64,000 nucleotides of DNA from contig BEIQ01000001.1 of the NCBI GenBank assembly GCA_002898275.1, positions 861,899-925,898 of the forward strand, in the 5' to 3' direction. The DNA comes from a bacterium HR40. Its GTDB lineage: Bacteria > Pseudomonadota > Alphaproteobacteria > Geminicoccales > Geminicoccaceae. Below the pieces are notes generated by a model. That model ran no database searches. It saw nothing but the letters and a program-made list of their open reading frames with translations, and was not told the DNA's origin. The position numbers were made by a program, and so were the translations under genes. This document shows, one piece after another, positions 5,280 to 35,656 of this stretch (positions are counted from its first letter, which is position 1; every line of letters starts with the position of its first letter).

Positions 5280-6718
5280 GCGACCTCTTGCTGATTGCGG
5301 TCCTGCTGGTACCGGCGGTAGCCGCGCTGTCGCTCGCCTTCGTGCGCGACTATCGCACCGGTGCCACTCTCAATGTGACGGCGGCGCTCCTCGCCTTCGC
5401 CGCGAGCGTGGCGCTGTTGCTCGGCGATCGTCCCCCCGCGGGCGAGCTGCTGATCGTCGACGACCTCAACACCACCTTCGTGGTGCTGAACACCTTGGTC
5501 GGTTTCACCACCAGCGTCTTCAGCGCCAGCTACATCGGCCACGAGCTCGACAGCGGCCGGCTCACGCCGGTACTGCTGCGCTTCTACCACGCCATGTACC
5601 AGGTCATGCTCGGGTCGATGAGCCTCGCACTCTTGGCCAATAACCTCGGCCTGCTGTGGGTCGGGGTCGAGGTCGCGACTCTCACCACCGTGGTCATGGT
5701 CGGCATCTACCGCACCGAGCCGGCCCTCGAGGCGGCATGGAAGTATTTCATTCTTGGCTCGGTGGGTATCGCCCTCGCCTTCTTTGGCACCGTCCTCGTC
5801 TATCTCGCGGCGCAGGAAGTGCTCGGCGAAGGCCTGCCGGCGCTCGCCTGGAATCGGGTGCTCGAGGTGGCACCGCGGCTCGACCCGCGCCTGCTCGACC
5901 TCGCCTTCGTCTTCCTGCTCGTCGGCTATGGCACCAAAGCTGGCCTGGTCCCCTTCCACGCCTGGCTGCCGGATGCCCACGCCGAAGGCCCGACCCCGAT
6001 CTCGGCGGTCCTCTCGGGGCTTCTGCTCAACGTCGCCCTCTACGCCCTCTTGCGCTTCAAGTTCTTGCTCGCCGGCAATCCCGAAGCCTTTGCCCCTGGC
6101 CCGCTCATGATCCTGCTCGGGCTGGGTTCGCTATGGTTTTCCGCCCTCATGCTGTACCGTCGCAGGGACATCAAACGGTTCTTCGCCTACAGCTCCATCG
6201 AACACATGGGCATCGCGTCCTTTGCCTTCGGCGTCGCCGGCCCGCTCGCTAATTTCGCCGGCCTTTTGCACATGGCCATGCACAGCCTCACCAAATCGGC
6301 GATCTTCATGGCGGTCGGCCATGTGGCGCAAGCTCGCGGTACTCAGAAAATCGCCGACCTCGGCGGTCTCGTGCGCACCCACCCCATGCTCGCGGTCGGG
6401 CTCGGTGCCGGCATGGTGGCGATCGCTGGGCTACCGCCTTTTGGCGTGTTCACGAGCGAGTTCCTCGTCTTGAACTCGGCCTTCGCTGCCGTGCCGTCGC
6501 TCGCGATCCCGCTCGCCATCGGTCTGCTCGTCGCCCTGGGCGCCCTGCTGTTGCGATTCGTCCAGATCCTCTTTGGCGAACCCAGTGCACAGGGCGAGCC
6601 GGTCCAGGCGGCTGTCTGGCCCCTCGTGCTGCACCTCGGGCTCGTCCTGATCGCTGGCGTCGTCTTGCCGGACCCCCTCGTGCGCTGGTTCCAGCATGTC
6701 GCCGCCTTGCTCGGATGA
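5276..6718 (+). CDS. hyfF: Hydrogenase-4 component F-like antiporter subunit
   Basis: 480 residues from GTG 5276. A NuoL/M/N-type antiporter protein with about 14 membrane helices. The diagnostic central motif is GTKAGLVPFHAWLPDAHAEG followed by PTPISAVLSGLLLN, and later FFAYSSIEHMGIASFAFG and HSLTKSAIFMAVGH. It pairs with HyfB as the second proton- or sodium-channel subunit. Gene order and the 4-base overlap with hyfE put it in the same transcript. The gap of 7 bases to hyfG is the widest between the membrane genes and the soluble arm. Confidence 0.9.
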   Translation: MSDLLLIAVLLVPAVAALSLAFVRDYRTGATLNVTAALLAFAASVALLLGDRPPAGELLIVDDLNTTFVVLNTLVGFTTSVFSASYIGHELDSGRLTPVLLRFYHAMYQVMLGSMSLALLANNLGLLWVGVEVATLTTVVMVGIYRTEPALEAAWKYFILGSVGIALAFFGTVLVYLAAQEVLGEGLPALAWNRVLEVAPRLDPRLLDLAFVFLLVGYGTKAGLVPFHAWLPDAHAEGPTPISAVLSGLLLNVALYALLRFKFLLAGNPEAFAPGPLMILLGLGSLWFSALMLYRRRDIKRFFAYSSIEHMGIASFAFGVAGPLANFAGLLHMAMHSLTKSAIFMAVGHVAQARGTQKIADLGGLVRTHPMLAVGLGAGMVAIAGLPPFGVFTSEFLVLNSAFAAVPSLAIPLAIGLLVALGALLLRFVQILFGEPSAQGEPVQAAVWPLVLHLGLVLIAGVVLPDPLVRWFQHVAALLG

Positions 6719-6725
6719 TCCGCCC

Positions 6726-8234
6726 ATGAGCGAGCTTCTCGCCTGCTTCGAAGGTCTGCGCGCCGAGCCGGACCACCACCCGTGGCCCCGCTTTCGGGTC
6801 GACCGGGAACGCTGGCTGGCGCTGCGCCAGGGGCTCGCGCGCGATCGCTTCGCGTTGCTCGCGGAATTCGGCGAACCGCAGGAAGTCCATGCCATCCTCT
6901 TCGATGGCGAGTCGCTCGCCCTCGTTGTCGCCAGCCTGGCTTGTCCCACCGGGCGCTTTCCTTCGCTCGCCGTGGACCATCTGCCGGCAGTCCGCTTCGA
7001 GCGCACCCTCCGGGACCTCGTCGGACTCGAACCAGAAGGCCTCTTCGACCTGCGACCTTGGCTCGATCATGGCAAATGGCCCCTGTCGCGGCCGCTGGCA
7101 TCGAATCCAGGCGCGCCGGAGGTGGCCTTCGACTATGCCTTCCTACCGGTCGAAGGCGAGGGGCTGCATCAGATTCCGGTCGGGCCCATCCACGCCGGCA
7201 TCATCGAACCGGGCCACTTCCGCTTCACGGCGAGCGGCGAGACCGTGGTGCGGCTCGAGGAGCGGCTAGGCTGGGTGCACAAGGGCATCGAAAAGCGTCT
7301 CGTCGGTCTCGACCTCGAGAGCGCGTGCCGGATCGTCGGTCGGGTCTCCGGCGATAGCACCGTAGCCTTCGCGTGGGCGTTCGCCCGCGCTGCCGAAGCG
7401 ATCGCCGGAGTGGTCCCGCCGGCTCGGGCGGTATGGCTGCGCGCGCTCATGCTCGAGCTCGAGCGCATCGCGAACCATTTCGGCGATATCGGCGCGATCT
7501 GCAACGATGCCGCCTTCACCCTGATTCACGCCCACTGCGGCATCCTCCGCGAGCGGGTCCTGCGGGCGGCCCACGAGGTCTTCGGCCATCGCCTGATGAT
7601 GGACCGGGTGGTACCGGGTGGTGTCGCGGTCGACCTCGACCCTGGCGGGATCGCGCGGCTGCATCGGCTCGTCGACGAGCTCGCGCCGGCCTTCGACAAG
7701 GTGGTGTCCGCCTACGACAACACCCCTTCGCTTCTCGACCGCACCGCCGAGACCGGGCGCGTGTCACCCTCTCTCGTGCGCCGTTTCGCCGCCGGTGGCC
7801 ACGTCGGACGTGCCGCAGGCCGGCCCTTCGATAGCCGTGCTCATCTCGCGACCGAACCCTATGACGACCTCGGCTTCCGGCCAGTGGTGCGCGAGGCAGG
7901 CGATGTCGACGCCCGGGTGTGGATCCGGATCGAGGAGGTACGCGAGAGCCTGCGGCTGGTGCGCGAGATCCTCGCGAAACTGCCGGCTGGACCGGTACGG
8001 GTGGAACTCCCGGTGCGGGCTGGCTGCGGCCTCGGGGTGGCGGAGGCGTTCCGCGGCGAAGTCCTCGTGTGGCTGCGGCTCGACGAGGCGGGACGTGTCC
8101 GCCGCTGCTACCCGCGCGATCCCTCCTGGCTCCAATGGCCCCTGCTCGAAGCGGCGATCGAAGGCAACATCGTCGCCGATTTCCCCCTCTGCAACAAGAG
8201 CTTCAATTGTTCCTATTCGGGACACGACCTGTGA
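6726..8234 (+). CDS. hyfG: Hydrogenase-4 component G-like large subunit without Ni ligands (Ehr type)
   Basis: 502 residues: an N-terminal NuoC-like domain (about 1-130) and a C-terminal NuoD/hydrogenase-large-subunit domain (from about 150: HQIPVGPIHAGIIEPGHFRF, then RLGWVHKGIEKRLVG). In real NiFe hydrogenases two CxxC pairs hold nickel. Here the first is replaced by CRIVGRVSGDS (residues 201-211), where only Cys201 remains and not in CxxC spacing. The second is replaced by LCNKSFNCSYSGHDL at the C-terminus, with Cys489 and Cys495 five residues apart. The protein therefore almost certainly cannot bind a NiFe centre. This is the hallmark of energy-converting-hydrogenase-related (Ehr) complexes, whose redox partner is unknown. 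Start ATG 6726. Confidence 0.88.
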   Translation: MSELLACFEGLRAEPDHHPWPRFRVDRERWLALRQGLARDRFALLAEFGEPQEVHAILFDGESLALVVASLACPTGRFPSLAVDHLPAVRFERTLRDLVGLEPEGLFDLRPWLDHGKWPLSRPLASNPGAPEVAFDYAFLPVEGEGLHQIPVGPIHAGIIEPGHFRFTASGETVVRLEERLGWVHKGIEKRLVGLDLESACRIVGRVSGDSTVAFAWAFARAAEAIAGVVPPARAVWLRALMLELERIANHFGDIGAICNDAAFTLIHAHCGILRERVLRAAHEVFGHRLMMDRVVPGGVAVDLDPGGIARLHRLVDELAPAFDKVVSAYDNTPSLLDRTAETGRVSPSLVRRFAAGGHVGRAAGRPFDSRAHLATEPYDDLGFRPVVREAGDVDARVWIRIEEVRESLRLVREILAKLPAGPVRVELPVRAGCGLGVAEAFRGEVLVWLRLDEAGRVRRCYPRDPSWLQWPLLEAAIEGNIVADFPLCNKSFNCSYSGHDL

Positions 8235-8244
8235 GAGAGCACCC

Positions 8245-8802
8245 ATGCGCCGGCTCTATTTCCACTCCCTCCTCTCCCGAGCGGTCACCGAGCCCGCACC
8301 GACTCCCGACGAGCGTGCGCTCGCCGAGCTCGGCGCGAGCCTGCGGGCACGTGCCCGCGCCCGGCTCGGTCGTTCGCTCGCCATCCGCGAGGTAGATGCC
8401 GGCTCGTGCAACGGCTGCGAGCTCGAGATCCACGCGCTCAACAACGCTTTTTACGACCTCGAGCGATTCGGCATCCGCTTCGTCGCTTCGCCGCGACACG
8501 CCGACGTGCTGCTGGTGACCGGTCCGGTCACGCGCAACATGGCCTTCGCGCTCAAACGCGCCTTCGACTGCACGCCCGATCCCAAATGGGTGGTGGCGGC
8601 CGGTGACTGCGCTTGCGGCCGCGGTCTCTTTGCCCCCTCCTACGCGCTCGAGGGCGAGGATGGCGCCGTAGCTCGCGTATTGCCGGTCGATCTCCATATT
8701 CCCGGCTGTCCCCCCACGCCTGTCGACCTCCTGCGCGGCCTGCTGGCGCTGCTCGAGGCAGCCGATGGCCGCATCCCCCATGCCGCCTGTCCGACCTGCT
8801 GA
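8245..8802 (+). CDS. hyfI: Hydrogenase-4 component I-like small subunit (NuoB family)
   Basis: 185 residues. The NuoB-like fold carries the [4Fe-4S] cluster next to the quinone/active-site cavity. Ligands are visible: Cys55 and Cys58 (SCNGCE), Cys122 or Cys124 (GDCACGRG) and Cys155 (IPGCPPTP), so the N2-like cluster should be intact although HyfG has lost nickel. The usual electron-relay ferredoxin subunit (HyfH/HyfA) is not next to it. Start ATG 8245, ten bases after hyfG, with GAGAGAGC as a weak ribosome-binding site. It is the last gene of the operon and its stop abuts the convergent choline-sulfatase stop with no space, so no terminator lies between them. Confidence 0.9.
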   Translation: MRRLYFHSLLSRAVTEPAPTPDERALAELGASLRARARARLGRSLAIREVDAGSCNGCELEIHALNNAFYDLERFGIRFVASPRHADVLLVTGPVTRNMAFALKRAFDCTPDPKWVVAAGDCACGRGLFAPSYALEGEDGAVARVLPVDLHIPGCPPTPVDLLRGLLALLEAADGRIPHAACPTC

Positions 8803-10341
8803 TCAGTCGACAGCCGCTCCGTCCCCGCTGGATCGGGTCGCTGGCGGAAAGCGACGCCCGGCCTCGAGCTCGTTGAGGTCGAGGTGGTTGCGCATGTATT
8901 GCCGCGAAGCATCGGTGAAGGGCTGGAAATCCCAAGCCCGCCAAGTCCCTTGGCGCAAGGCCGAAAACACGAAGCGGCGCCGCCTCTGGCTCTCGAGGAC
9001 GGCACGATGCAGCGACTCCGGCTGCCAATGACGCCGGATCTCGGCCAGCCATTCCTCGACTCGTGCCGCCGACGAGGGTTCGGTGGCGAGATCGACGAGC
9101 TCGAGCGGGTCGGCCGCGAGATCGAAGAGGAGCGGCGGATCGGCCGGCGACCAGATGAACTTGTACCGGTCGTCGCGGATCATCAGGATCGGGGCGATCG
9201 CCCCTTCCGCCGTGTATTCGGCGAGCACCGGGCGAGGGGCGAGCGGCTCGCCACCGAGCGCCGGCAACAGACTGCGGCCGTCTAGCCCCCGCGGCGGAGT
9301 CCCACCCGCGAGCTCCACGAGCGTGGGAAAGAGATCGAGATGCGAGACGGGCTCGCGCACCCGAGCCGGCGGGAAGCGGTTCGGCGCATGGACGAGAAGC
9401 GGGACGCGCACCGCCGGCTCGAAGAAATGCATTTTGTACCACATGCCGCGTTCGCCGAGCATTTCACCGTGATCGGCGGTGAAGATCACGATCGTATCGT
9501 CGAGACCGAAGGTCGCCAAGGTCGAGAGCAGCCGGCCCAACTGCTCGTCGATATAGGAGATGGCCCCGTAGTAGGCGCGGCGAGCCCGTTCGACATGGAA
9601 GGCACCGATCGCCGCGCGGTCCATGGCGTTGGCGAAATAGAGGCGCCGACTGTGGGCATCCATTTCGGCGAGGGGGATGGGAGGAACCCGTGGAGGGTCG
9701 ATCGCGATCCCCTCGTAGAGATCCCAAAAACGCCTAGGTATGGCAAAGGGATCGTGGGGATGGGTAAAGGACACGCAGAACAGAAAGGGACGGCGATCGC
9801 GCTCGCGGGCGCGGTCCGCGAGCCAGCGGTTGGCGACGAACCCCACCTCCTCGTCGAAGTCGAGCTGGTTGGTGGCCTCGGCCACTCCTGCTTGGAGCAC
9901 CGAGTCCATGTTGTGGTACCACCAGTCGATGCGCTCCTGCGGATGGTCCCAGTCGGGCGTCCAGCCAAAGTCGGCGGGGTAGATATCGGTCGTCAGACGC
10001 TCCTCGAAGCCGTGCAGCTGATCGGGACCGACGAAGTGCATTTTTCCGGCCAGTGCCGTACGATAGCCGAGGTTCCTTAGCGCATGGGCGAAGGTCGGGA
10101 TTTCGGCCCGGAACTCGGCGGCGTTATCGTACACCCCCACACGGGTGGCGAGCTGCCCGCTCATGAGCGCCGCCCGCGCCGGCGCGCACAAGGGGAAGTT
10201 GCAATAGGCGTGGTCGAAAACGACACCGTCGGCGGCCAGCCGGTCGAGGTGCGGGCTGCGGCTCACCGGATGACCGTAGGCTCTGAGGGCGAGCGCCGAC
10301 AGTTGGTCGGCGACGACGAGGAGAATGTCCGGCCGCTTCAC
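8803..10341 (-). CDS. betC: Choline-sulfatase
   Basis: 512 residues, the usual length for choline-sulfatase, which hydrolyses choline-O-sulfate to choline and sulfate. The sulfatase signature C-x-P-x-R is CAPAR at residues 52-56; Cys52 would become formylglycine. Metal-binding regions VVADQ (N-terminus) and FTADHGEMLGERGMW are present. The C-terminal extension specific to this group is visible: WDFQPFTDASRQYMRNHLDL. It starts at GTG 10341, 9 bases after the SDR gene, so the two probably share a transcript. No betA, betB or betI is in the window. It is cytoplasmic, as no signal peptide is present. A formylglycine-generating enzyme must be encoded elsewhere. Confidence 0.9.
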   Translation of the reverse strand: MKRPDILLVVADQLSALALRAYGHPVSRSPHLDRLAADGVVFDHAYCNFPLCAPARAALMSGQLATRVGVYDNAAEFRAEIPTFAHALRNLGYRTALAGKMHFVGPDQLHGFEERLTTDIYPADFGWTPDWDHPQERIDWWYHNMDSVLQAGVAEATNQLDFDEEVGFVANRWLADRARERDRRPFLFCVSFTHPHDPFAIPRRFWDLYEGIAIDPPRVPPIPLAEMDAHSRRLYFANAMDRAAIGAFHVERARRAYYGAISYIDEQLGRLLSTLATFGLDDTIVIFTADHGEMLGERGMWYKMHFFEPAVRVPLLVHAPNRFPPARVREPVSHLDLFPTLVELAGGTPPRGLDGRSLLPALGGEPLAPRPVLAEYTAEGAIAPILMIRDDRYKFIWSPADPPLLFDLAADPLELVDLATEPSSAARVEEWLAEIRRHWQPESLHRAVLESQRRRRFVFSALRQGTWRAWDFQPFTDASRQYMRNHLDLNELEAGRRFPPATRSSGDGAAVD

Positions 10342-10350
10342 GGAAGGGCC

Positions 10351-11130
10351 TCAGCGGGTGCGCAGGGTCTCGGTGCCACCGTCGACGGCGATGGCTTGGC
10401 CGGTGATCCGCCGTCCGAGGTCGGAACAGAGAAAGAGGATCATGTTGGCGATGTCCCTGGCCTCGACGAAAGTCCGCAGCGCATTGGTGCGGAGATAGGC
10501 GGCGCGCGTTTCCTCGATGCTCCGCCCGGTCACCTGGGCATCGGCGGCGATCACCCGTTCGATGCGCGGCCCCTCGACCGGTCCCGGGCAGATGGCGTTG
10601 ACCCGTATGCCGCGCGGCCCGAGCTCCATGGCGAGCGTCTTGGTGAGGCCGATAATACCCCATTTGGCGGTGGCATAGGGGGTGCGGTTGGGAAAGCCGA
10701 AGAGGCCGGCGGTCGACGACAGATTGACGATCGAGCCGCCACCCGCCTTCACCAGCTCGGGCACGGCGCGGCGGGTGCAAAGAAAGGTGCCATCGAGGTT
10801 CACGGCCAGGCAATGCTTCCAACCCGCGAGGTCGAGGCTCTCGACAGGCCCCGTGGGCCCGGCGATGCCGGCATTGTTGACGAGGATGTCGAGCCCGCCG
10901 AGCGCTGCGAGTGCCGCCGCGAACAGCCGCTCGACATCCTCCTCCCGGGCGACATCGGCATGAATGCGGCCAATCTCCGGCCGCTTGGCGGCGACATCGG
11001 CGAGGGCACGATCGTCGATGTCGCACACGAACACCCGCGCCCCGGCATCGACGAAGGCCTCGGCCGTCACCCGGCCGATGCCCGCGGCACCGGCGGTCAC
11101 GATCACCCGTTTCCCGGCAAGTCCCTGCAC
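10351..11130 (-). CDS. SDR-family oxidoreductase
   Basis: 259 residues with the classical short-chain dehydrogenase layout: the cofactor motif TAGAAGIG near the N-terminus, DILVNNAG, the catalytic Ser in NLSST, YATAKWG (Tyr and Lys), and the C-terminal GQAIAVDGG. The start chosen is GTG 11130 because GGGGAGGA lies 5 bases before it; an ATG further upstream at 11169 would add 13 residues without a good site. An acidic residue after the second strand (CDIDD) favours NAD over NADP. Substrate is unknown. Position directly upstream of choline-sulfatase suggests a related alcohol or hydroxyacid, but this is only context. Confidence 0.85.
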   Translation of the reverse strand: MQGLAGKRVIVTAGAAGIGRVTAEAFVDAGARVFVCDIDDRALADVAAKRPEIGRIHADVAREEDVERLFAAALAALGGLDILVNNAGIAGPTGPVESLDLAGWKHCLAVNLDGTFLCTRRAVPELVKAGGGSIVNLSSTAGLFGFPNRTPYATAKWGIIGLTKTLAMELGPRGIRVNAICPGPVEGPRIERVIAADAQVTGRSIEETRAAYLRTNALRTFVEARDIANMILFLCSDLGRRITGQAIAVDGGTETLRTR

Positions 11131-11314
11131 CTCTGTCCTCCCCTGAGCGGTCGTGGCGTCAAACTGCACGGACCATCCATGGCCCGGAGCATGGAAAACG
11201 TCGCATGCCTGCGCAAGCCCGACATGGCCTAAAAGAAGCCCGAGGCCGCGGCTTTACCGCTCTCTCCTCGGCAGGACGGCCCGAAGCGGGCGAGACCCCG
11301 TGCGGCCCAGGCGC

Positions 11315-11343
11315 TTGACGGCCGGCGGTGGCGGCCATAGATC
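11315..11343 (+). promoter_or_regulatory. Sigma70-type promoter of tRNA-Met
   Basis: TTGACG, 17 nt, TAGATC; predicted start near 11350, four bases before the tRNA at 11354. Same geometry as the promoter of the other CAT tRNA in this window. Confidence 0.55.
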
Positions 11344-11353
11344 GGCGCGCGGG

Positions 11354-11428
11354 GGCGGAGTAGCTCAGCGGTAGAGCAGCGGAATCATAATCCGTTGGTC
11401 GGGGGTTCGAATCCCTCCTCCGCTACCA
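11354..11428 (+). tRNA. tRNA-Met (CAT), elongator type
   Basis: Cloverleaf: acceptor GGCGGAG with CTCCGCT (one G-U closing pair), D stem GCTC/GAGC, anticodon stem GCGGA/TCCGT with loop ATCATAA (anticodon CAT), T arm GGGGG-TTCGAAT-CCCTC with one G-T pair, discriminator A and encoded CCA at 11426-11428. Sequence closely follows the alphaproteobacterial elongator tRNA-Met pattern. It lacks the unpaired first base pair of initiator tRNA. Confidence 0.93.
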
Positions 11429-11486
11429 TCTCCCGAGTTCGGGCGCCGATCCCATCCGGCTCCGGCCGGTCCGCCGGTGCCGGGCC

Positions 11487-12854
11487 CTAATAGGCATATT
11501 CCGCGAACACCGGATCGACGCTGCCCTGCCACGGCCCGTAGAACTTCTCGAGCTTCTCTTCGGCCGGGGTGCGGCCGCTCTCGGCGATCTCGAATAAACG
11601 GGCGAGGAATTGCCGCTCGTCATTGCCCTCGAGGTCGGTGTAGGAGCGGCGGGCGAGTCCGCCGGCGGCGATGGCGAGCGCATCGAGCGCCCATTCGCGC
11701 AAGGTGCGGTCGCGAAACGGGGTACGGAGCGCGGTGCGCGGCACCTCGCGGCGCAAATAGAGGTGCTCCTCGATCGTCCAGTCGCGGCACAGCTCGAGCG
11801 CCGCATCGAGCGCCGCGGGATCGTAGAGCAACCCCGCCCAGAATGCCGGTAAGCCACAGAGCTCGCGCCAAGGGCCGCCGTCGGCACCGCGCATCTCGAG
11901 GTAGCGCTTGAGCCGCACCTCGGTGAAAATGGTCGTCAGATGGTCGGCCCAGTCGGAAAGGGTCGCCACCTCGCCGGGCAGGGCGGGCAGCCGACCAGCG
12001 AGGAAATCGCGAAACGACTGGCCAGCGGCATCGATGTAGCGGCCGTCGCGATAGACGAAGTACATGGGGACATCCAGCGCATAGTCGACGTAGCGCTCGA
12101 AGCCCATGCCGTCCTCGAAGACGAAAGGGAGGATTCCGCAGCGGTCGGGATCGGTGTCGGTCCACACATGGCTCCGGTAACTGAGGTAGCCGGAGGGCCG
12201 CCCATCGACGAAGGGAGAATTGGCGAAGAGGGCAGTGGCGATCGGCTGGAGGGCCATGCCGACACGGAATTTGCGCACCATGTCGGCCTCGTCGGCGAAA
12301 TCCAAATTCACCTGGATCGTGCAGGTGCGCAACATCATGTCGAGGCCGAGCCGCCCTTTCTTGGGCATGTAGGCGCGCATGATGCGATATCGCCCCTTCG
12401 GCATCCAAGGGATCTCCTCGCGCCGCCACTTCGGCTGAAAGCCCATGCCCAGCATGCCGACGCCAAGCGGCTCTGCCACCTGCCGAACCTGCTCGAGATG
12501 CTCGTGGACCTCGCAACAGGTCTCGTGGACGTTCTGCAAAGGAGCGCCCGAGAGCTCGAACTGACCGCCCGGCTCGAGGGTGATGGCACAGCGCCCGCGG
12601 ACCAGGGCGATCGGCAGGCCGTTCTCGAGGACCGGCTGCCAGCCGAAACGGTGCGACAGCCCCTCGAGCAAAGATCGGATACCGGCTGGGCCCTCATAGG
12701 CGAGGGGCCGCAGCGTGTCTTTGTGGAAGGCGAACTTCTCGTGTTCGGTGCCGATCCGGAACTCGCTGCGCGGTTTGCAGCCCGCTTCCAGCCATTCGAC
12801 GAGCTGGCGACGGCTCGTAATCGGCTCCCCCCTTCCGGCGGGCGGTCCCGACAT
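11487..12854 (-). CDS. gshA: Glutamate-cysteine ligase (plant/alphaproteobacterial type)
   Basis: 455 residues from ATG 12854, which has GAGGAG 4 bases upstream; an ATG further up at 12914 would add 20 residues lacking similarity. First step of glutathione synthesis: ATP-dependent joining of glutamate and cysteine. Family features include [12 protein letters not shown] near the N-terminus, [13 protein letters not shown] (ATP/Mg-binding Glu), [13 protein letters not shown] in the middle, and YADLEG-like SYTDLEGND near the C-terminus. This is the GCS2-like group of alphaproteobacteria and plants, not the E. coli type. It is transcribed alone or after ghrA. A gshB is not in the window. Confidence 0.93.
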
Positions 12855-13211
12855 CGCTCTCCTCTCCCCCTTGCCTGACAGGGCCGCTGGCCATCTCTCC
12901 GCGACCCCTGCCAAAGACGATCACAAGCCCGAAGACCAGCGCCAGATCACCCCTGCCCCTCGCGTCCCGCGGGCACCGGCGAACCGCGCGCGGCCGCCCA
13001 TCGGCTTTCGCCACACCCGTCGCGATCGGCCGGGGCGGCGCCAGGGGTTGGGGTCTTCGCGAGCCGGCAGTCCTTCCTGCCCCGCGCTCGCGCCAGTCTC
13101 GCCGCGCACCGGCCAATGGCGAACCTCCGGTGGCGGCGGGCGGCGGTTCGTGCGGGTTGTCCTTCGTGGGCAACGCTGCGCGTCATATCGGCTCCGGCAA
13201 GCGGGCGGCCG
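12855..13211. other. Intergenic region, no supported gene
   Basis: 357 bp between ghrA and gshA, both on the minus strand. Open frames here are antisense-like, rich in Arg/Gly/Pro, and show no recognisable domain. The last 20 bases before gshA carry its ribosome-binding site. No clear promoter or hairpin-plus-T terminator was found. Confidence 0.5.
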
Positions 13212-14138
13212 TCAATAGCCGCGCTCGCGTTGCACCAGATGGAGCAGCGGGCGGCCGTCGCGCAAGCGGCGAATGTTCGCGGCGACCACCGCCGCTCCGG
13301 TCGCCGGCAGGGAATAGCCGGCGACGTGGGGGGTGATGCGGATGCGCGGATGCCGCCAGAACGGATGGTCGGACGGCAGCGGTTCGGTGGCAAAGACATC
13401 GAGTACGGCCCCGCGCAGCTGGCCGCACGCCAACATGGCCAGCAGATCCGACTCGACGAGCTGCGGTCCGCGGCCGACATGGACGAGGACCGCGCCCGCC
13501 GGCAGGGTGGAGAACAGTCGGCGATCGAGGATGCCCCGCGTCTCGGCGGTGAGCGGCAAGAGGCAAACGAGGACCTCGCTCTTGCGCAAGAAGGCGTCGC
13601 GCTCGGCGCTGCCGGCGAAGGTTTCGACGCCCTCGATGCGATGGCGCGAGCGGCTGTAGCCACACACGCGAAAACCCGCGTCGGCGAGGGTGCGGGCGAC
13701 GGCGCTGCCGACAGCGCCCAGCCCCATCACCCCGACCGTGCGCTCCGCTGCCGGTCGTGGCATGCGGAAACGCCATTCCGCCCGCCGCTGCTGCTCCTCG
13801 AACAGATCGAGATCGCGATGGTAGAACAGCGCTTGGGCGAGAACGTATTCGGCCATGGTGCGGGTCAGCGACTCGTCGACCATGCGGCAGAGCGGTACCG
13901 GCGGCAGGGTGGGATCCGCGAGGAGGCCGTCGACTCCGGCCGAGAGCGCCTGGATCAAGCGGAGGTTCGGGAGCTGAGCGAGCAGGCCGGGCGGCGGTTG
14001 CCAGACGAGCGCCACCTCGATGTCGGCGGGATCGCCGATTTCGGGATAGACGCGGAAGTCGAGCTCGGGCAGCTCGCGCGCGAGCGCCTGCCGCCAAGCC
14101 TCGGGGTCGTCGACTGGACTGACGAACAAAAGGGCCAT
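13212..14138 (-). CDS. ghrA: D-2-hydroxyacid dehydrogenase, glyoxylate/hydroxypyruvate reductase A type
   Basis: 308 residues from ATG 14138. NAD(P)-dependent reductase of the D-isomer 2-hydroxyacid dehydrogenase family. The cofactor motif is GVMGLGAVGSAVA; HVGRGPQLVE and the DVFATEPLP - HPFWRHPRIRITPHVAG end carry the catalytic Arg, Glu and His. The C-terminus (NIRRLRDGRPL...VQRERGY) is the usual GhrA ending. It reduces glyoxylate or hydroxypyruvate to glycolate or glycerate. A longer in-frame extension to 14378 exists but lacks family similarity and runs under the divergent transporter gene. Gap to the divergent substrate-binding protein is 182 bp. Confidence 0.87.
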   Translation of the reverse strand: MALLFVSPVDDPEAWRQALARELPELDFRVYPEIGDPADIEVALVWQPPPGLLAQLPNLRLIQALSAGVDGLLADPTLPPVPLCRMVDESLTRTMAEYVLAQALFYHRDLDLFEEQQRRAEWRFRMPRPAAERTVGVMGLGAVGSAVARTLADAGFRVCGYSRSRHRIEGVETFAGSAERDAFLRKSEVLVCLLPLTAETRGILDRRLFSTLPAGAVLVHVGRGPQLVESDLLAMLACGQLRGAVLDVFATEPLPSDHPFWRHPRIRITPHVAGYSLPATGAAVVAANIRRLRDGRPLLHLVQRERGY

Positions 14139-29618: not shown

Positions 29619-31193
29619 TTGGTCTCGTTGCTCCATCTCGGCGAGGTCGTCGCCACCCACGCGCGCATCCACCCCGACCGGGTGGGAGTACGCGATCTCG
29701 ATCGCCAACTGACCTTCGCCCAGTGGAATCGACGTGCCTGTCGACTGGCCAATGCGCTTTTGGGTCTCGGGCTGACCAAGGGCGACCGGGTGGCGGTGCT
29801 CGCCTACAACCGCCTCGAATGGATGGAGATCTACGCGGCGGTGGCGAAAGCCGGGCTCGTCGTCGTGCCCGTCAACTTCCGCCTCGTCGGTTCGGAGATC
29901 GCCTTCATCGTCCAGGATAGCGGGGCGAAGGTGCTCATCTGCGAAGACGAGCTCGTCGAGCGCCTCGAGGGGATTCGCGCCGAGTTGCCCCTTTTGCCGC
30001 AGGGGTGGGTTCATCTCGGCGGGCGACGTCCGCCCGCGGGCTTTATCGCTTACGAGGAGCTGGTCGCCGCGGCATCCGAGCGCGAGCCTGGCGTATCGGT
30101 GACGGCCTCGGATCCCTGGGCCTTCATGTACACCTCCGGTACGACCGGTCGCCCCAAGGGCGCCATCCGCTCCCATGGCGCCTCGGCGCTGTTGTCGCTC
30201 GTCACCGAGGTGGAACTCGGCTTTCACCGGCGCGACACCGCTCTCCTCGTCATGCCCATGTGCCACGCCAACTCCCTCTATTTCGCCACCTCCCTCGCCT
30301 ACTGTGGCGGCGGCTGTTTCGTCTACAATCGCCGGAGCTTCGATCCCGAGCACGTGCTCGCGACCCTCGCTGCGGGTGGCGCCACCTTCACCTCTCTCGT
30401 GCCCACCCAGTATGTGATGATGCTCGAGCTGCCGAAGGCGGTCCGCGCGCGCTACGATCTCTCGCAGGTGCGCCGGCTCATGATCTCCTCCGCCCCGGCG
30501 CGGCGCGACACCAAGCTCGGGATCATGGAGCTCTTCCCGAACTCGGGTCTGTTCGAGCTCTATGGCTCCACCGAACAGGGCTGGGTGACGATGCTGCACC
30601 CCGAGGAGCAACTCGCCAAACTCGGCTCGGTCGGACGCGAGTGTGTGGGAAGCCGTCGCGTGCGGCTGCTCGACGATGCCGGACGAGAAGTGCCGGACGG
30701 CGAAGTGGGGGAGCTGTTCGCCTGGACGCCCTATCTCTTCGACGGCTACTGGAACGCGCCGGAGAAGACGGCAGCGGCGATGCGGGATGGATTTTGCTCG
30801 GTGGGCGATATGGCGCGACGCGACGAGGACGGCTTCATCTGGCTCGTCGACCGCAAGAGCAACATGATCATCTCCGGCGGCGAGAACGTCTACCCGTCCG
30901 AGGTCGAGGCGGTGCTCCTCGGCCATCCCGCGGTTCGCGAGGCGGCGGTGATCGGCCTGCCGGATCCTTTGTGGGGCGAGCGGGTCCACGCCGTGGTGGT
31001 CTTGCATCCGGGCGCGGCGCTGGATTCCGCCGAACTCCTCGAGTGGTGCCGGCCGCGCTTGGCCGGCTACAAGCGTCCGCGCTCGCTGACGTTCATGGCA
31101 GCCGAGGACATCCCCCGCACCGCCACCGGCAAGATCCAGCATCGCCTGCTGCGCAACCGCATCCTCGAGCAGGAAAGGGGACCGACCCCATGA
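29619..31193 (+). CDS. Acyl-CoA ligase (AMP-binding family), coupled to ThDP enzyme
   Basis: 524 residues, TTG start at 29619 supported by GAGGAGG a few bases before it. ANL-family enzyme that adenylates a carboxylic acid and transfers it to CoA. The P-loop-like motif [11 protein letters not shown] is at residues 171-181, [10 protein letters not shown] is the A5 motif, [20 protein letters not shown] carries the ribose-binding Asp and hinge, and catalytic Lys505 lies in [10 protein letters not shown]. Substrate is not obvious; the next gene, overlapping by 4 bases, suggests a 2-hydroxy acid that is then cleaved by a ThDP lyase. Confidence 0.88.
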
Positions 31194-32929
31194 CCGCCCC
31201 AGCCGTCGCCGACCATGGCGCTGCCGAGACCAGCGCCGCCGCCTGGGTCGCGCGCTTCCTCGAGCGGCGCGGGGTGGACCGGGTCTTCGGCCTCCAGGGG
31301 GGCCACATCCAGCCCATCTGGGACTGGCTCGCCCGGCTCGGCATTCGCATCGTCGACGTCCGCCACGAGGGCGCCGCCGTGCTCATGGCGCAGGCGCATG
31401 CCGAGCTCACGGGCACCCTCGGTGTCGCCATGGTGACCGCCGGGCCGGGAATCACCAACACCGTCACGGCCGTCGCGAACGCCAGTCTCGCCCGCGCCCC
31501 GGTGCTGGTGATCGGCGGCTGTCCACCGCGGCCGCAAGCCCATATGGGGCCACTGCAGGACATCCCCCATGTCGACATCCTCCGGCCCGTCACCCGCCGG
31601 GCGCGGACCTTGCGGGTCGCCGAACAGGTGGTGCGCGAGCTCGACGAAGCGGTCGCCTTGGCTCTCGGCGATGGAGGCGAACCCGGACCCGTCTTCGTCG
31701 AAATCCCGACCGATGTGCTGCGGGAAAGGGTCGCTCCGACACTCGTCCTCGAGGAGTGGCTCGCACCCAAACCACCGAGGCAGATTTTGCCCGATCCGGC
31801 AGCGATCGAGGTGGCGCAGCGACTCATCTGGCAGGCCAAGCGGCCGCTCGTCATTTCCGGGCGAGGCGCACGGGAGGCCGGAGAGGCGCTGTTGCGACTG
31901 CTCGATGCTTCGCACGCTCTCTACCTCGACACGCAGGAAAGTCGCGGACTCGTTCCCTTCGATCATCCCGCCTTTGTCGGGGCCGCGCGGGCGCGGGCCA
32001 TGCGCGAGGCCGACCTCGTCGTCCTCGTGGGTCGCAAGCTCGACTATCAGCTCGGTTACGGCTCCCCCGCGGTGTTCCCCAACGCCCGCTTTCTCCGCAT
32101 CTCGCAAAGCCCTCTCGAGCTCGTCGACAACCGCCGGGGCGTGGTCGAGATCCTTGCCACGCCAGGGTTGGCATTGCGGGCCATCGTCGAGGCGGCGGGC
32201 AATGCCCGACCGGCCGCCGACCCCGACTGGATCGCCGAGCTGCGGGCACTGCACCGCAAGCGCTCGGCCGCTCCCTTTGGCGACGCGCCGACCTCGGGCC
32301 CGGACGGACGGCTGCATCCGCGGGTGATTTTCGAGGCCATCGAAGCGCTCGCCTCGCCCGACTTCGTCGCCGTGGCCGATGGCGGCGATCTGCTGAGCTT
32401 CGCCCGCATCGGTCTCGGCCGTGCCCGCACCTATCTCGATTCCGGCGCCTTTGGCTGTCTGGGCGTCGGCGTGCCGTTCGCCGTCGCCGCCGCCCTGGCC
32501 TTCCCTGGCCGGCAGGTGATTTCGGTCAATGGCGATGGCGCCTTCGGTCTGCACGCCATGGAAGTCGACACCGCCGTCCGGCACGGAGCACGGGCGGTGT
32601 TCGTCATCTCCAACAACGCTGCCTGGAACATCGAGCGCGTCGATCAGGAAATGAATTACGGCGGCCGCGTGATCGGCACCACCCTGCGCCACTGCGACTA
32701 TGCCGGGCTCGCCCGGGCCCTCGGAGCGCGGGGGGAACGGGTGGAAAGGGCGGAGGAGATGTTGCCGGCGCTCGAACGGGCCCTCGCCGATCCGCCGGCG
32801 GTGGTGGACGTCCTCACCTCGCAGCAGACGATCTCTTCGGACGCCCGCAAAGGGCTCGGTTTCGTGCCCGACTTCCAGCCCCTCCTGGACTGGGACGAAG
32901 CGGAGCGGCAGCGGCGTGCCGGCAACTGA
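31190..32929 (+). CDS. Thiamine diphosphate-dependent enzyme, possible 2-hydroxyacyl-CoA lyase
   Basis: 579 residues with the three domains of the acetolactate synthase/oxalyl-CoA decarboxylase superfamily. N-terminal pyrimidine-binding domain with catalytic Glu60 (VRHEGAA), central domain, and C-terminal diphosphate-binding domain with Gly448-Asp449-Gly450 and Asn475-Asn476 (GDG...NN motif). Coupled to an acyl-CoA ligase, as in 2-hydroxyisobutyryl-CoA lyase gene pairs of some bacteria. Other members such as acetolactate synthase catabolic forms or sulfoacetaldehyde acetyltransferase are not excluded. ATG 31190 overlaps the ligase stop. Confidence 0.82.
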
Positions 32930-33233: not shown

Positions 33234-34766
33234 ATGCGCCCCACCCCTGCCCTCATGTTCCAAGCCACCTGTTCGAATGCCGGCAAGTCGCTGATCGTCG
33301 CCGGCTTGTGTCGGGCGTACCAGCGTCGCGGCCTGCGCGTGCTTCCCTTCAAGCCGCAGAACATGAGCAACAATGCCGCCCCGGCCGAAGGTGGCGAGAT
33401 CGGCCGCGCCCAGGCGCTGCAGGCGCGGGCGGCGCGGGTTCCCCCCTCGGTGCACATGAACCCGGTGTTGCTCAAGCCGGAAAGCGAGAGCGGTGCCCAG
33501 GTGGTGGTCCATGGCCGAAGGCGGGCCACGGTGTCGGCGCGCGACTACCAAAGGCTCAAGCCGAGCTTGCTCGCGGAGGTGCTCGCGAGCTTCCATCGCC
33601 TCGAGGCCGAAGCCGAACTCCTGCTGGTGGAAGGGGCCGGCAGCGCCGCGGAGGTCAATCTGCGCGCCGGCGACATCGCCAACATGGGCTTCGCCCTCGC
33701 AGCCGGCGTGCCCGTGGTGTTGGTGGGCGACATCGATCGCGGCGGGGTGATCGCGGCCCTCGTCGGCACCCACAGGCTGCTCGCCGAAGACGAGCGGCGA
33801 TTGCTCGGCGGCTATGTCATCAACAAGTTCCGCGGCGATCCGACGCTGTTTTCCGGCGCTCTGCCGCGCATCGAGGAGGAGACCGGGCTCGCGTGCCTGG
33901 GCATCGTCCCCTGGTTCGCCGATGCCCGACTGCTGCCGGCCGAGGATGCCCTCGGGCTCGAGGAGCGCAGTCGGCGGGGTCCCGCCCCCATCCACATCGC
34001 CGTCCCCAAGCTGCCGCGCATCGCCAATTTCGACGATCTCGACCCGCTCGCCCAGGAACCCGACGTCGCCCTCGCCCTCCTCGATCTCGACGAGCCTCTG
34101 CCGGTCGACACCGACCTCGTGCTTTTGCCGGGCAGCAAGGCAGTGATCGACGATCTGCTGGCCCTCCGGGCCTCCGGCTTCGCCTCGGACATCTACGCTC
34201 ACGTCCGCCGCGGCGGTTGGGTGCTCGGTATCTGCGGCGGTTATCAGATGCTCGGTCGCAGCGTCGCCGATCCCCATGGTCTCGAGGGCCCGCCGCGCAC
34301 CGTTCCGGGGCTCGGGCTTCTCGCCCACACGACCCTGCTGCTGCCGGACAAACAGGTGCGCGCCGTCTCCGGCAGGGAGTACGAGAGTGGATTCGGCCTG
34401 ACGGGCTACGAGATCCACCTCGGACGCAGCGAGCGCGGGGGCGACGACGAGCCGTGGCTCGAGATCGAGGGCAGGCCGGAGGGCAGCGTGCGACGCGACC
34501 GTCGCGTCTTCGGCACCTATGTGCACGGTCTCTTTGCCAACGATGCCTTCCGTCGTGCCTTTCTCGCGCGCCTTCGGCCGGACGTGCGCTCCCGTCTCGA
34601 TTACGAGGCACGGATCGAGGATACCCTCGACCGCCTCGCCGACCATCTCGAAGCGGCCATCGACCTCGACCGGCTCTATCGACTCGCCGAGACCAGGACG
34701 AGGCCTGCCGCCACCGTGGCCACGAGCAGCGAGAACGCCCGTCGCACCAGCCGCAGCGCGCGGTAG
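33234..34766 (+). CDS. cobQ: Cobyric acid synthase
   Basis: 510 residues from ATG 33234. Amidates adenosylcobyrinic acid a,c-diamide at four carboxyls with glutamine. N-terminal ATPase domain [15 protein letters not shown]..., then KPQNMSNNA and [13 protein letters not shown]-terminal class I glutamine amidotransferase with Cys334 ([11 protein letters not shown]) and His431 (GTYVHGLF). The C-terminus overlaps the convergent cobD by 91 bp, and the last 30 residues, rich in Arg and Thr, look non-conserved. Fits a cobalamin pathway split over the genome. Confidence 0.94.
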
Positions 34767-35656
34767 ATGTCGGCGGCGTCGAGATCCGCCCGTCCGTCGC
34801 CTATCCAGGGCTCGTCGCTCGCCACCCCACCATAGCTGCGCGGTCCCGACAGACGGAAACCCAGCGCGCCGGCCGTAGCGGCCTCGGGGAAACCGGCATT
34901 GGGCGAACGATGGCGACGGGCGTCCCGGCGCAGGATGCGCAGCGCCTGTCGTGCGTCGGCATCGGCGGCAAGGCCCGCCGCCGCCACGAGCAGCAAGGCG
35001 GTGAGGCGGGCCGGCAGGAAGTTCAGGGCATCGTCCAGCCTGGCACTCGCTCGCCCGAAATGGAGGTAGCGGGGGGTACGATAGCCGAGCATACTGTCGA
35101 GCGTGTTGATCGCCTTGGCGGCGAAGAGACCGGGCAGACCCAAGAGCAGCATCCAAAAGAGCGGCGCCACCAGCCCGTCGGAGAAGTTCTCGGCGAGGGA
35201 CTCGATCGCTGCCCGCGCTATCCCGTGTCGGTCGAGGGCCTGGGGATCGCGACCGACAATGTGGCGGACGGCGTTCCGCCCGCCCTCGAGACCCTGCTCG
35301 AGGCCGCGCGCCACCGCCACCACGTGCCGCTCGAGGCTACCCCAGGCGAAGAGCACGCCCGCTGCGAGACCGGATGCGAGCGCACCTGCTGGCAGGGCAG
35401 CGAAGAGAGCGGTCAAGCCGTAGCCGATCGCCGCTGCCAGTCCCACGACCCCGAGACAAAGCGCCGTGCCGCGCAGGAGGGCGGCGCGGGGCCGTGGCAC
35501 ATGCAGACGTCGATCGAGCCAAGCGATCGCATGCCCGAGCAGGGCAACGGGATGCGGCAAGCGATCCCAGAGGGCCGCGGGATCGCCGACGAGGGCATCG
35601 AGCAGCAGGCCCACGAGAGCCGCGAGGAGGATGTGTTGGGGATCCTCGAACAGCAT
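34676..35656 (-). CDS. cobD: Adenosylcobinamide-phosphate synthase
   Basis: 326 residues with four to five membrane helices. The CobD/CbiB family joins cobyric acid to aminopropanol phosphate. Recognisable blocks: [20 protein letters not shown] (N-terminal), [56 protein letters not shown] and the C-terminal [14 protein letters not shown]. Start ATG 35656. It overlaps cobQ in the opposite direction at its 3' end. Confidence 0.94.

Follow-up and report, generated by a model that had tools for sequence, protein, structure and literature searches.

The window analysed here is a stretch of 64,000 nucleotides (64 kb) from the alphaproteobacterium HR40 (contig BEIQ01000001.1), whose genome comprises 2.89 Mb on 8 contigs. 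It contains two genes for an acyl-CoA ligase of the ANL superfamily and for an enzyme dependent on thiamine diphosphate (ThDP), which are listed with their features in Table 1. A first-pass annotation, made from the letters alone, had noted a 4-base overlap of the two genes, and this was borne out by the coordinates of the open reading frames (ORFs) and by the Pfam domains. The overlap results from CCCATGACC at 31187-31195. The mechanical ORF list extends the frame of the ThDP enzyme back to 30005; the ATG at 31190 was taken as its start because homology to relatives sets in no more than about 16 residues past it. AcHACL, a 2-hydroxyacyl-CoA lyase from Actinomycetospora chiangmaiensis also called HICL (WP_018331913.1, PDB 7PT1-7PT4), served as reference for the lyase residues, with numbering and roles as in PMC8760513.

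Table 1. Features of the gene pair in window coordinates. Roles of lyase residues are transferred from AcHACL, as described in the accessible text of PMC8760513. LIG denotes the family of the window ligase, HCL the ligase paired with such lyases in actinobacteria.
Feature	Position	Strand	Remarks
ANL acyl-CoA ligase, LIG family, non-HCL	29619..31193	+	TTG start, 524 amino acids (aa)
ThDP-dependent 2-hydroxyacyl-CoA lyase (predicted), AcHACL/HICL type	31190..32929	+	ATG start, 579 aa
ATGA stop/start overlap joining the ligase and lyase genes	31190..31193	+	4 shared bases, gap -4
Ligase Trp322, immediately following motif A5	30582..30584	+	candidate wall of a small acyl pocket
Glu60 of the lyase (AcHACL E65)	31367..31369	+	by alignment; would activate N1' of ThDP
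Leu122-Gln123 of the lyase (AcHACL L127, Q128)	31553..31558	+	putative size limit; putative contact to the thioester carbonyl
Ile481-Glu482 of the lyase (AcHACL I492, E493)	32630..32635	+	putative size limit; putative acid/base catalyst
C-terminal lid of the lyase	32825..32926	+	aligned to AcHACL 556 onward; putative extension limiting substrate size

Identity of the ThDP enzyme

The ThDP enzyme matched PF02776, PF00205 and PF02775, each above the cut-off, and NF058623, the NCBIfam equivalog of 2-hydroxyacyl-CoA lyase, with 972 bits over residues 9-576 (cut-off 600). The second-best family was acetolactate synthase with 369 bits (24 other families listed, 53 matched). An identity as acetolactate synthase (369 bits against a cut-off of 587 and 240 against 538) or as oxalyl-CoA decarboxylase (229 bits against 557 and 210 against 739) was rejected, the tree described below also speaking against both, and so was sulfoacetaldehyde acetyltransferase with 206 bits, below its cut-off. 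When the PDB was searched, AcHACL and its mutants took the top five places with E values from 1e-210 to 1e-209 (7pt1, E 1.1e-210), followed in sixth place by a chain labelled oxalyl-CoA decarboxylase with E 6e-64. In the pairwise alignment with AcHACL, 346 of 558 columns were identical (62%).

Among 24 AcHACL residues compared, only S274 (Ala) and D312 (Gln) were changed in the window lyase. All eleven catalytic and acyl pocket or lid residues are identical, namely Q41, G43, H44, E65, T88, L127, Q128, I492, E493, L566 and V569. The CoA contacts Q255, R273, R362, R417, D561 and K564 are common to both enzymes, S274 being the contact that is altered, while five of the six residues filling the ADP site of AcHACL are retained (R107, R230, E256, R288 and E316, with D312 as the sixth). 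The lid residues L556 and V559 of the window lyase are retained as well and the alignment reaches residue 576 of 579. According to the part of PMC8760513 at hand, E493 is the acid/base catalyst of AcHACL, Q128 contacts the carbonyl, and L127, I492 and the C-terminal lid restrict the acyl moiety to C4-C5; the catalytic Glu is described there as missing from acetolactate synthase and oxalyl-CoA decarboxylase. In AcHACL, exchanging this Glu for Gln or Ala lowers kcat about 50- and 10-fold, respectively. Across 47 rows (the lyases of 46 loci and AcHACL), E493 was found in 47, L127 and Q128 in 46 each and I492 in 45. The sub-family is called HICL/S and prefers ketones, as far as the accessible text of PMC11271303 goes.

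A fully supported branch separated the 47 lyases from the outgroups in a quick tree with 14 outgroups and in a careful tree with 6 of these 14 (bootstrap and SH-aLRT); two outgroups were kept in the rebuilt topology tests mentioned later. A crown clade of 39 rows including AcHACL and the window lyase had a support of 100/100, and E. coli Oxc as well as ThDP paralogues from the own and related genomes fell outside the lyase clade. AcHACL was represented by its PDB stretch 31-597 only and is the sole actinobacterial HCL-linked lyase in the tree. A phylogeny against characterised enzymes had been proposed in the first-pass annotation. The enzyme does group with AcHACL and apart from E. coli Oxc, the outgroups being this Oxc and ThDP paralogues of the sampled genomes rather than the full panel of characterised enzymes. 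A grouping with acetolactate synthases, named there as the outcome that would speak against a lyase, was seen neither in the model scores nor in the tree. Thus, the assignment of the ThDP enzyme as a 2-hydroxyacyl-CoA lyase, suggested from the start, and more precisely as one of the AcHACL type, is strongly supported at the level of sequence by the NF058623 score, the identity to AcHACL, the kept residues and the clade.

Some relatives deviate at these sites. The lyase of L062 (NZ_AP025173.1, plasmid pMTS2 of Cupriavidus sp. P-10, 8962-10698) has the active-site changes G43S, H44Y and I492L and may act on another substrate. It adjoins a LIG-type ligase, a GntR regulator and a transporter of the major facilitator superfamily, with a xanthine/CO-dehydrogenase-like cluster nearby. 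A second residue set occurs in seven lyases (L107-L111, L063, L064), where Q41 is Cys, Q255 is Ser or Gly and K564 is Ala or Ser, perhaps reflecting a different grip on CoA or a different substrate.

The partner ligase and its pairing with the lyase

The ligase matched PF00501 with 265 bits and PF13193 with 77 bits, above the cut-offs, whereas its best NCBIfam family, PRK06187, remained below the cut-off (459 against 476 bits). It was compared with the HCL encoded in the hcm operon of Methylibium PM1 (477 aa, L064), which stood in for the HCL of Actinomycetospora. Although both proteins have an AMP-binding domain, no BLASTP match between them was obtained at E<=1e-5, and the C-terminal domain is PF13193 in the window ligase but PF14535 in PM1 HCL. 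Orthology to HCL was rejected on these grounds; nor did any protein of the own genome match PM1 HCL above 33% identity. The first-pass annotation had likened the two genes to known pairs that activate 2-hydroxyisobutyrate and cleave its CoA ester, and this likeness holds for the lyase but not for the ligase.

The relatives of the window ligase that lie next to a lyase are 52-68% identical to it. In a short tree search, 36 lyase-linked ligases formed one clade with a support of 100, set against 17 further ligases taken from these and related genomes. Nearly all of them share a signature consisting of LVMPxCHANSxxF at A4 and YGS[TS]Ex[GA]WVT at A5. Trp at position 322 was present in 35 of the 36 and in none of the 17 others, five of which are gapped there. 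The acyl pocket of acetyl-CoA synthetase is closed off by a Trp in the vicinity of A5. By this analogy, Trp322 would suggest a small acyl pocket in the ligase, and the pairing of the ligase with the lyase makes 2-hydroxyisobutyrate a candidate acid for activation. The pair of L061 (G030 C61) carries L127P and Q128R in the lyase and W322R in the ligase, all at otherwise near-invariant sites, and looks like a decaying copy or an assembly error.

The partner of the lyase was a LIG ligase in 37 of the 46 loci and HCL in six (PM1, G127, G401, G235, G324 and G258), while three (L046, L057 and L111) had neither in the stretch examined. The ligase came first in 29 of 36 LIG loci and the lyase in six, all from betaproteobacterial metagenome-assembled genomes (MAGs); in one, on the Azoarcus plasmid pAZKH, the genes lie on opposite strands, and the 37th is partial at a contig end. 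Most of the loci with both genes on the same strand have them overlapping or closely spaced. The loci are not independent of each other, some being close kin (L041-L043, L104/L105). L106 was scored as LIG from 103 residues at a contig end and the ligase of L059 was matched in two pieces; left out were L056 (same contig as L039), L052 (a stub of 43 residues), H2 (Cupriavidus basilensis, 64%) and L008, which gave no hit for use as an outgroup. Among 30 genomes, a LIG ligase was found in five of six with the lyase and in none of 24 without it (Fisher p 4.2e-5, uncorrected for kinship). Since LIG stands beside the lyase in so many related loci, the adjacency in the window was judged not to be due to chance.

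Of 385 genomes sampled from the class, 23 from 15 family codes had the lyase, the own genome being one of them (E<=1e-120). In these, LIG was adjacent in 17 (one partial), HCL in five and neither in one. A phylum-wide sample gave two of 398 genomes, again with the own one, and a search of 72,556 plasmid records gave four at E<=1e-100, two from Cupriavidus and one each from Azoarcus KH32C and Methylibium PM1. Betaproteobacterial MAGs also contain the lyase.

The ligases appear to have been exchanged. In the careful tree the Azoarcus lyase joined the PM1 branch (99/99), while its ligase grouped with other betaproteobacterial LIGs (97, short tree search). Forcing the Azoarcus lyase together with the other LIG-paired lyases was rejected by the approximately unbiased (AU) test with p 3e-5 when AcHACL was set aside. 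A single clade of all 37 LIG-paired lyases was rejected with p 3e-32, which alone does not show an exchange because the comparison included rows merely without a ligase; after rebuilding without these rows it was rejected with p 5e-38. Without the Azoarcus row, a clade of the remaining 36 was not rejected (AU p 0.068), and without both Azoarcus and AcHACL these 36 already form one clade (100/99). The trees thus support that the pairing was remade at least once, at the Azoarcus plasmid. That one lyase branch occurs with HCL in PM1 and with LIG in Azoarcus would be best explained by ligases that share their product.

Proposed route and alternative explanations

With a probability of roughly 0.8, the two genes make up a module that degrades short tertiary 2-hydroxy acids in two steps, in which LIG would be an alternative to HCL serving the same kind of lyase. 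The ligase would join the acid to CoA with ATP. In the second step, for which the sequence support is strong, the ThDP lyase would attack the thioester carbon and Glu482 would take the proton of the tertiary hydroxyl; the C-C bond would then break, the ketone leaving and formyl-CoA being released. The latter would probably be hydrolysed to formate, which would then be oxidised. Because the size-limiting residues are retained, C4-C5 acids are the likeliest substrates, namely 2-hydroxyisobutyrate, which would yield acetone, and 2-hydroxy-2-methylbutyrate, which would yield butanone. A route for branched 2-hydroxy acids had already been considered in the first-pass annotation and gains support from the lyase family, its active site and the pairing.

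Genes for the handling of formyl-CoA, which the first-pass annotation had named as a check, were looked for in the own genome with a divided outcome. The alpha subunit of formate dehydrogenase was found with 746 bits (cut-off 666) and thus formate is probably handled, whereas all matches to formyl-CoA transferase stayed below the cut-off, which weighs against the proposed module. So do several other observations. The gamma subunit of acetone carboxylase, present in 14 of 190 genomes of the class sample, was not found in the own genome. Neither was a match to the PF02332 monooxygenases, but the control was silent as well and absence is thus not shown. A GntR/FCD regulator of one family lies near 25 of the 46 loci, of LIG and HCL type alike (E<=1e-8, query from L040), which speaks for the module, but none was found in the window. 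No neighbouring gene indicates the substrate: in a scan of 116 flanking proteins, GntR occurred 17 times and every other family at most four times. These were 114 of 135 listed proteins, 21 having been removed by hand mostly as doubtful or cut ORFs, and two from L106 and L057; ORF calls are rough in the GC-rich flanks, where several ORFs are probably shadows. L057 and L046 carry a near relative of the lyase without such a ligase in the stretch examined. Finally, a position of the HCL-linked AcHACL inside the LIG-paired lyases, which would imply a second exchange, is not established.

The strongest alternative, though less likely than the proposed module, is the same lyase chemistry with another natural substrate such as 2-hydroxy-2-methylbut-3-enoate or 2-methylglycerate, both products of isoprene oxidation, so that the ligase would differ as the acid differs. 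It would account for a ligase that is not HCL, and AcHACL forms 2-methylglyceryl-CoA and binds its (S) form according to the available portion of PMC13327070. However, the acyl pocket and lid residues match those of AcHACL, and the occurrence of one lyase branch with either ligase also argues against this alternative.

It is far less probable that the lyase works in vivo mainly in the synthetic direction, joining a ketone to formyl-CoA, and that the ligase serves another step. C-C bond formation in reverse had been raised in the first-pass annotation; it is chemically possible given that the AcHACL reaction is reversible (PMC8760513, in the text accessible), and on the PM1 plasmid and in four alphaproteobacteria the lyase is clustered with 2-hydroxyisobutyryl-CoA mutase, so that both enzymes jointly would connect acetone and formyl-CoA to 3-hydroxybutyryl-CoA. 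The own genome, by contrast, lacks a formyl-CoA transferase above the cut-off and no Hcm-like mutase was called in it because its matches to PM1 HcmA are only 43, 35 and 26% identical, compared with 76-78% in G127, G235, G324 and G401. A route via 2-hydroxyisobutyryl-CoA mutase was rejected for this genome on the same values. Moreover, starting from the acid, the coupled ATP-dependent ligase would arrive at the same 2-hydroxyacyl-CoA; this fits cleavage and favours the degradative direction.

That the second gene encodes an acetolactate synthase, an oxalyl-CoA decarboxylase or another ThDP enzyme next to an unrelated ligase is hardly credible, since the shared superfamily and the merely general Pfam domains are outweighed by the NCBIfam scores, the tree and the catalytic Glu in all rows.

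Neighbouring genes, related clusters and known systems

Upstream of the pair and divergent from it lies a GFA-family gene (PF04828, 29065-29526, reverse strand), a family outside the 25 commonest among the flanking proteins at related loci. A cobyric acid synthase-like gene (GATase_3, CbiA; 33234-34766, forward strand) and a CobD/CbiB gene (34676-35656, reverse strand) follow downstream; no functional link of these two to the pair was seen. No MpdB- or MpdC-like dehydrogenase was present among the five neighbouring window genes scanned. At other loci, a short-chain dehydrogenase gene directly follows the lyase in three relatives (L054, L055 and L099), too few to build on, and two genomes of one genus have a gene of the ornithine cyclodeaminase/mu-crystallin family immediately before the ligase (L098, 2787-3725; L101, 10424-11386).

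In Methylibium PM1, a degrader of fuel oxygenates, the AcHACL-type lyase is clustered with HCL, HcmB and HcmA (L064, NC_008826.1 481481-507193, at 6516-13737). The same cluster occurs in four small alphaproteobacterial genomes (L107-L110; G127, G401, G235 and G324), of which G127 additionally has the gamma subunit of acetone carboxylase. In L112 (4484-6332), HcmB and HCL adjoin the lyase and no HcmA match was found within the 11.4 kb examined.

In the open-access PMC literature covered (titles, beginnings of abstracts and selected papers), no LIG-type ligase was described together with such a lyase. Tentatively, and at slightly less than even odds, LIG could be an unrecognised family of 2-hydroxyacyl-CoA ligases that replaces HCL, and the module, present in many alphaproteobacterial families, a widespread natural route for biogenic tertiary 2-hydroxy acids derived from isobutene, isoamylene, isoprene or cyanohydrins, which the literature covered describes only from actinobacteria. 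If so, the ketone-forming cleavage of these acids would extend past the actinobacteria, where it has been shown. One-carbon chemistry with formyl-CoA would gain another ligase family and a set of 46 natural lyases with a known structural template. Whether 2-hydroxyisobutyrate or its C5 homologue arises naturally, a question raised in the accessible part of PMC7176365, would become testable.

Compared with known systems, the window lyase resembles AcHACL most closely, in overall identity as well as in the catalytic, pocket and lid residues. AcHACL itself gave little soluble protein in E. coli, and a mycobacterial host has been proposed for it (PMC7176365); in Actinomycetospora the 2-hydroxy acid acts as inducer and the cells release ketone. 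The window lyase differs in the Ala and Gln that replace S274 and D312, in its proteobacterial host and in its partner ligase. Oxalyl-CoA decarboxylase and the HACL1-type lyases (E. coli Oxc, RuHACL and human HACL1) share ThDP, a CoA substrate and formyl-CoA as product; yet E. coli Oxc is not part of the clade and the best PDB match of this type is 484 bits weaker than AcHACL. The mutase cluster (hcl, hcmAB, meaH) of Aquincola and Methylibium PM1 has in common the CoA activation of a 2-hydroxy acid, and a related GntR/FCD regulator is found at many lyase loci, but the window genome is without an Hcm-like mutase. PM1 itself holds both the mutase and an AcHACL-type lyase. A counterpart as a gene pair is the lyase-HCL cluster of Actinomycetospora, Pseudonocardia and Rhodococcus, with an HCL of 465 aa, as given in the portion of PMC7176365 available. 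Both have adjacent genes and would combine CoA activation with subsequent cleavage. In the window, however, the ligase of 524 aa with its PF13193 domain takes the place of HCL, and the gene order is reversed, with the ligase first instead of the lyase as in Actinomycetospora. Judged by sequence, the lyase belongs to a characterised family, and its partner ligase is what differs.

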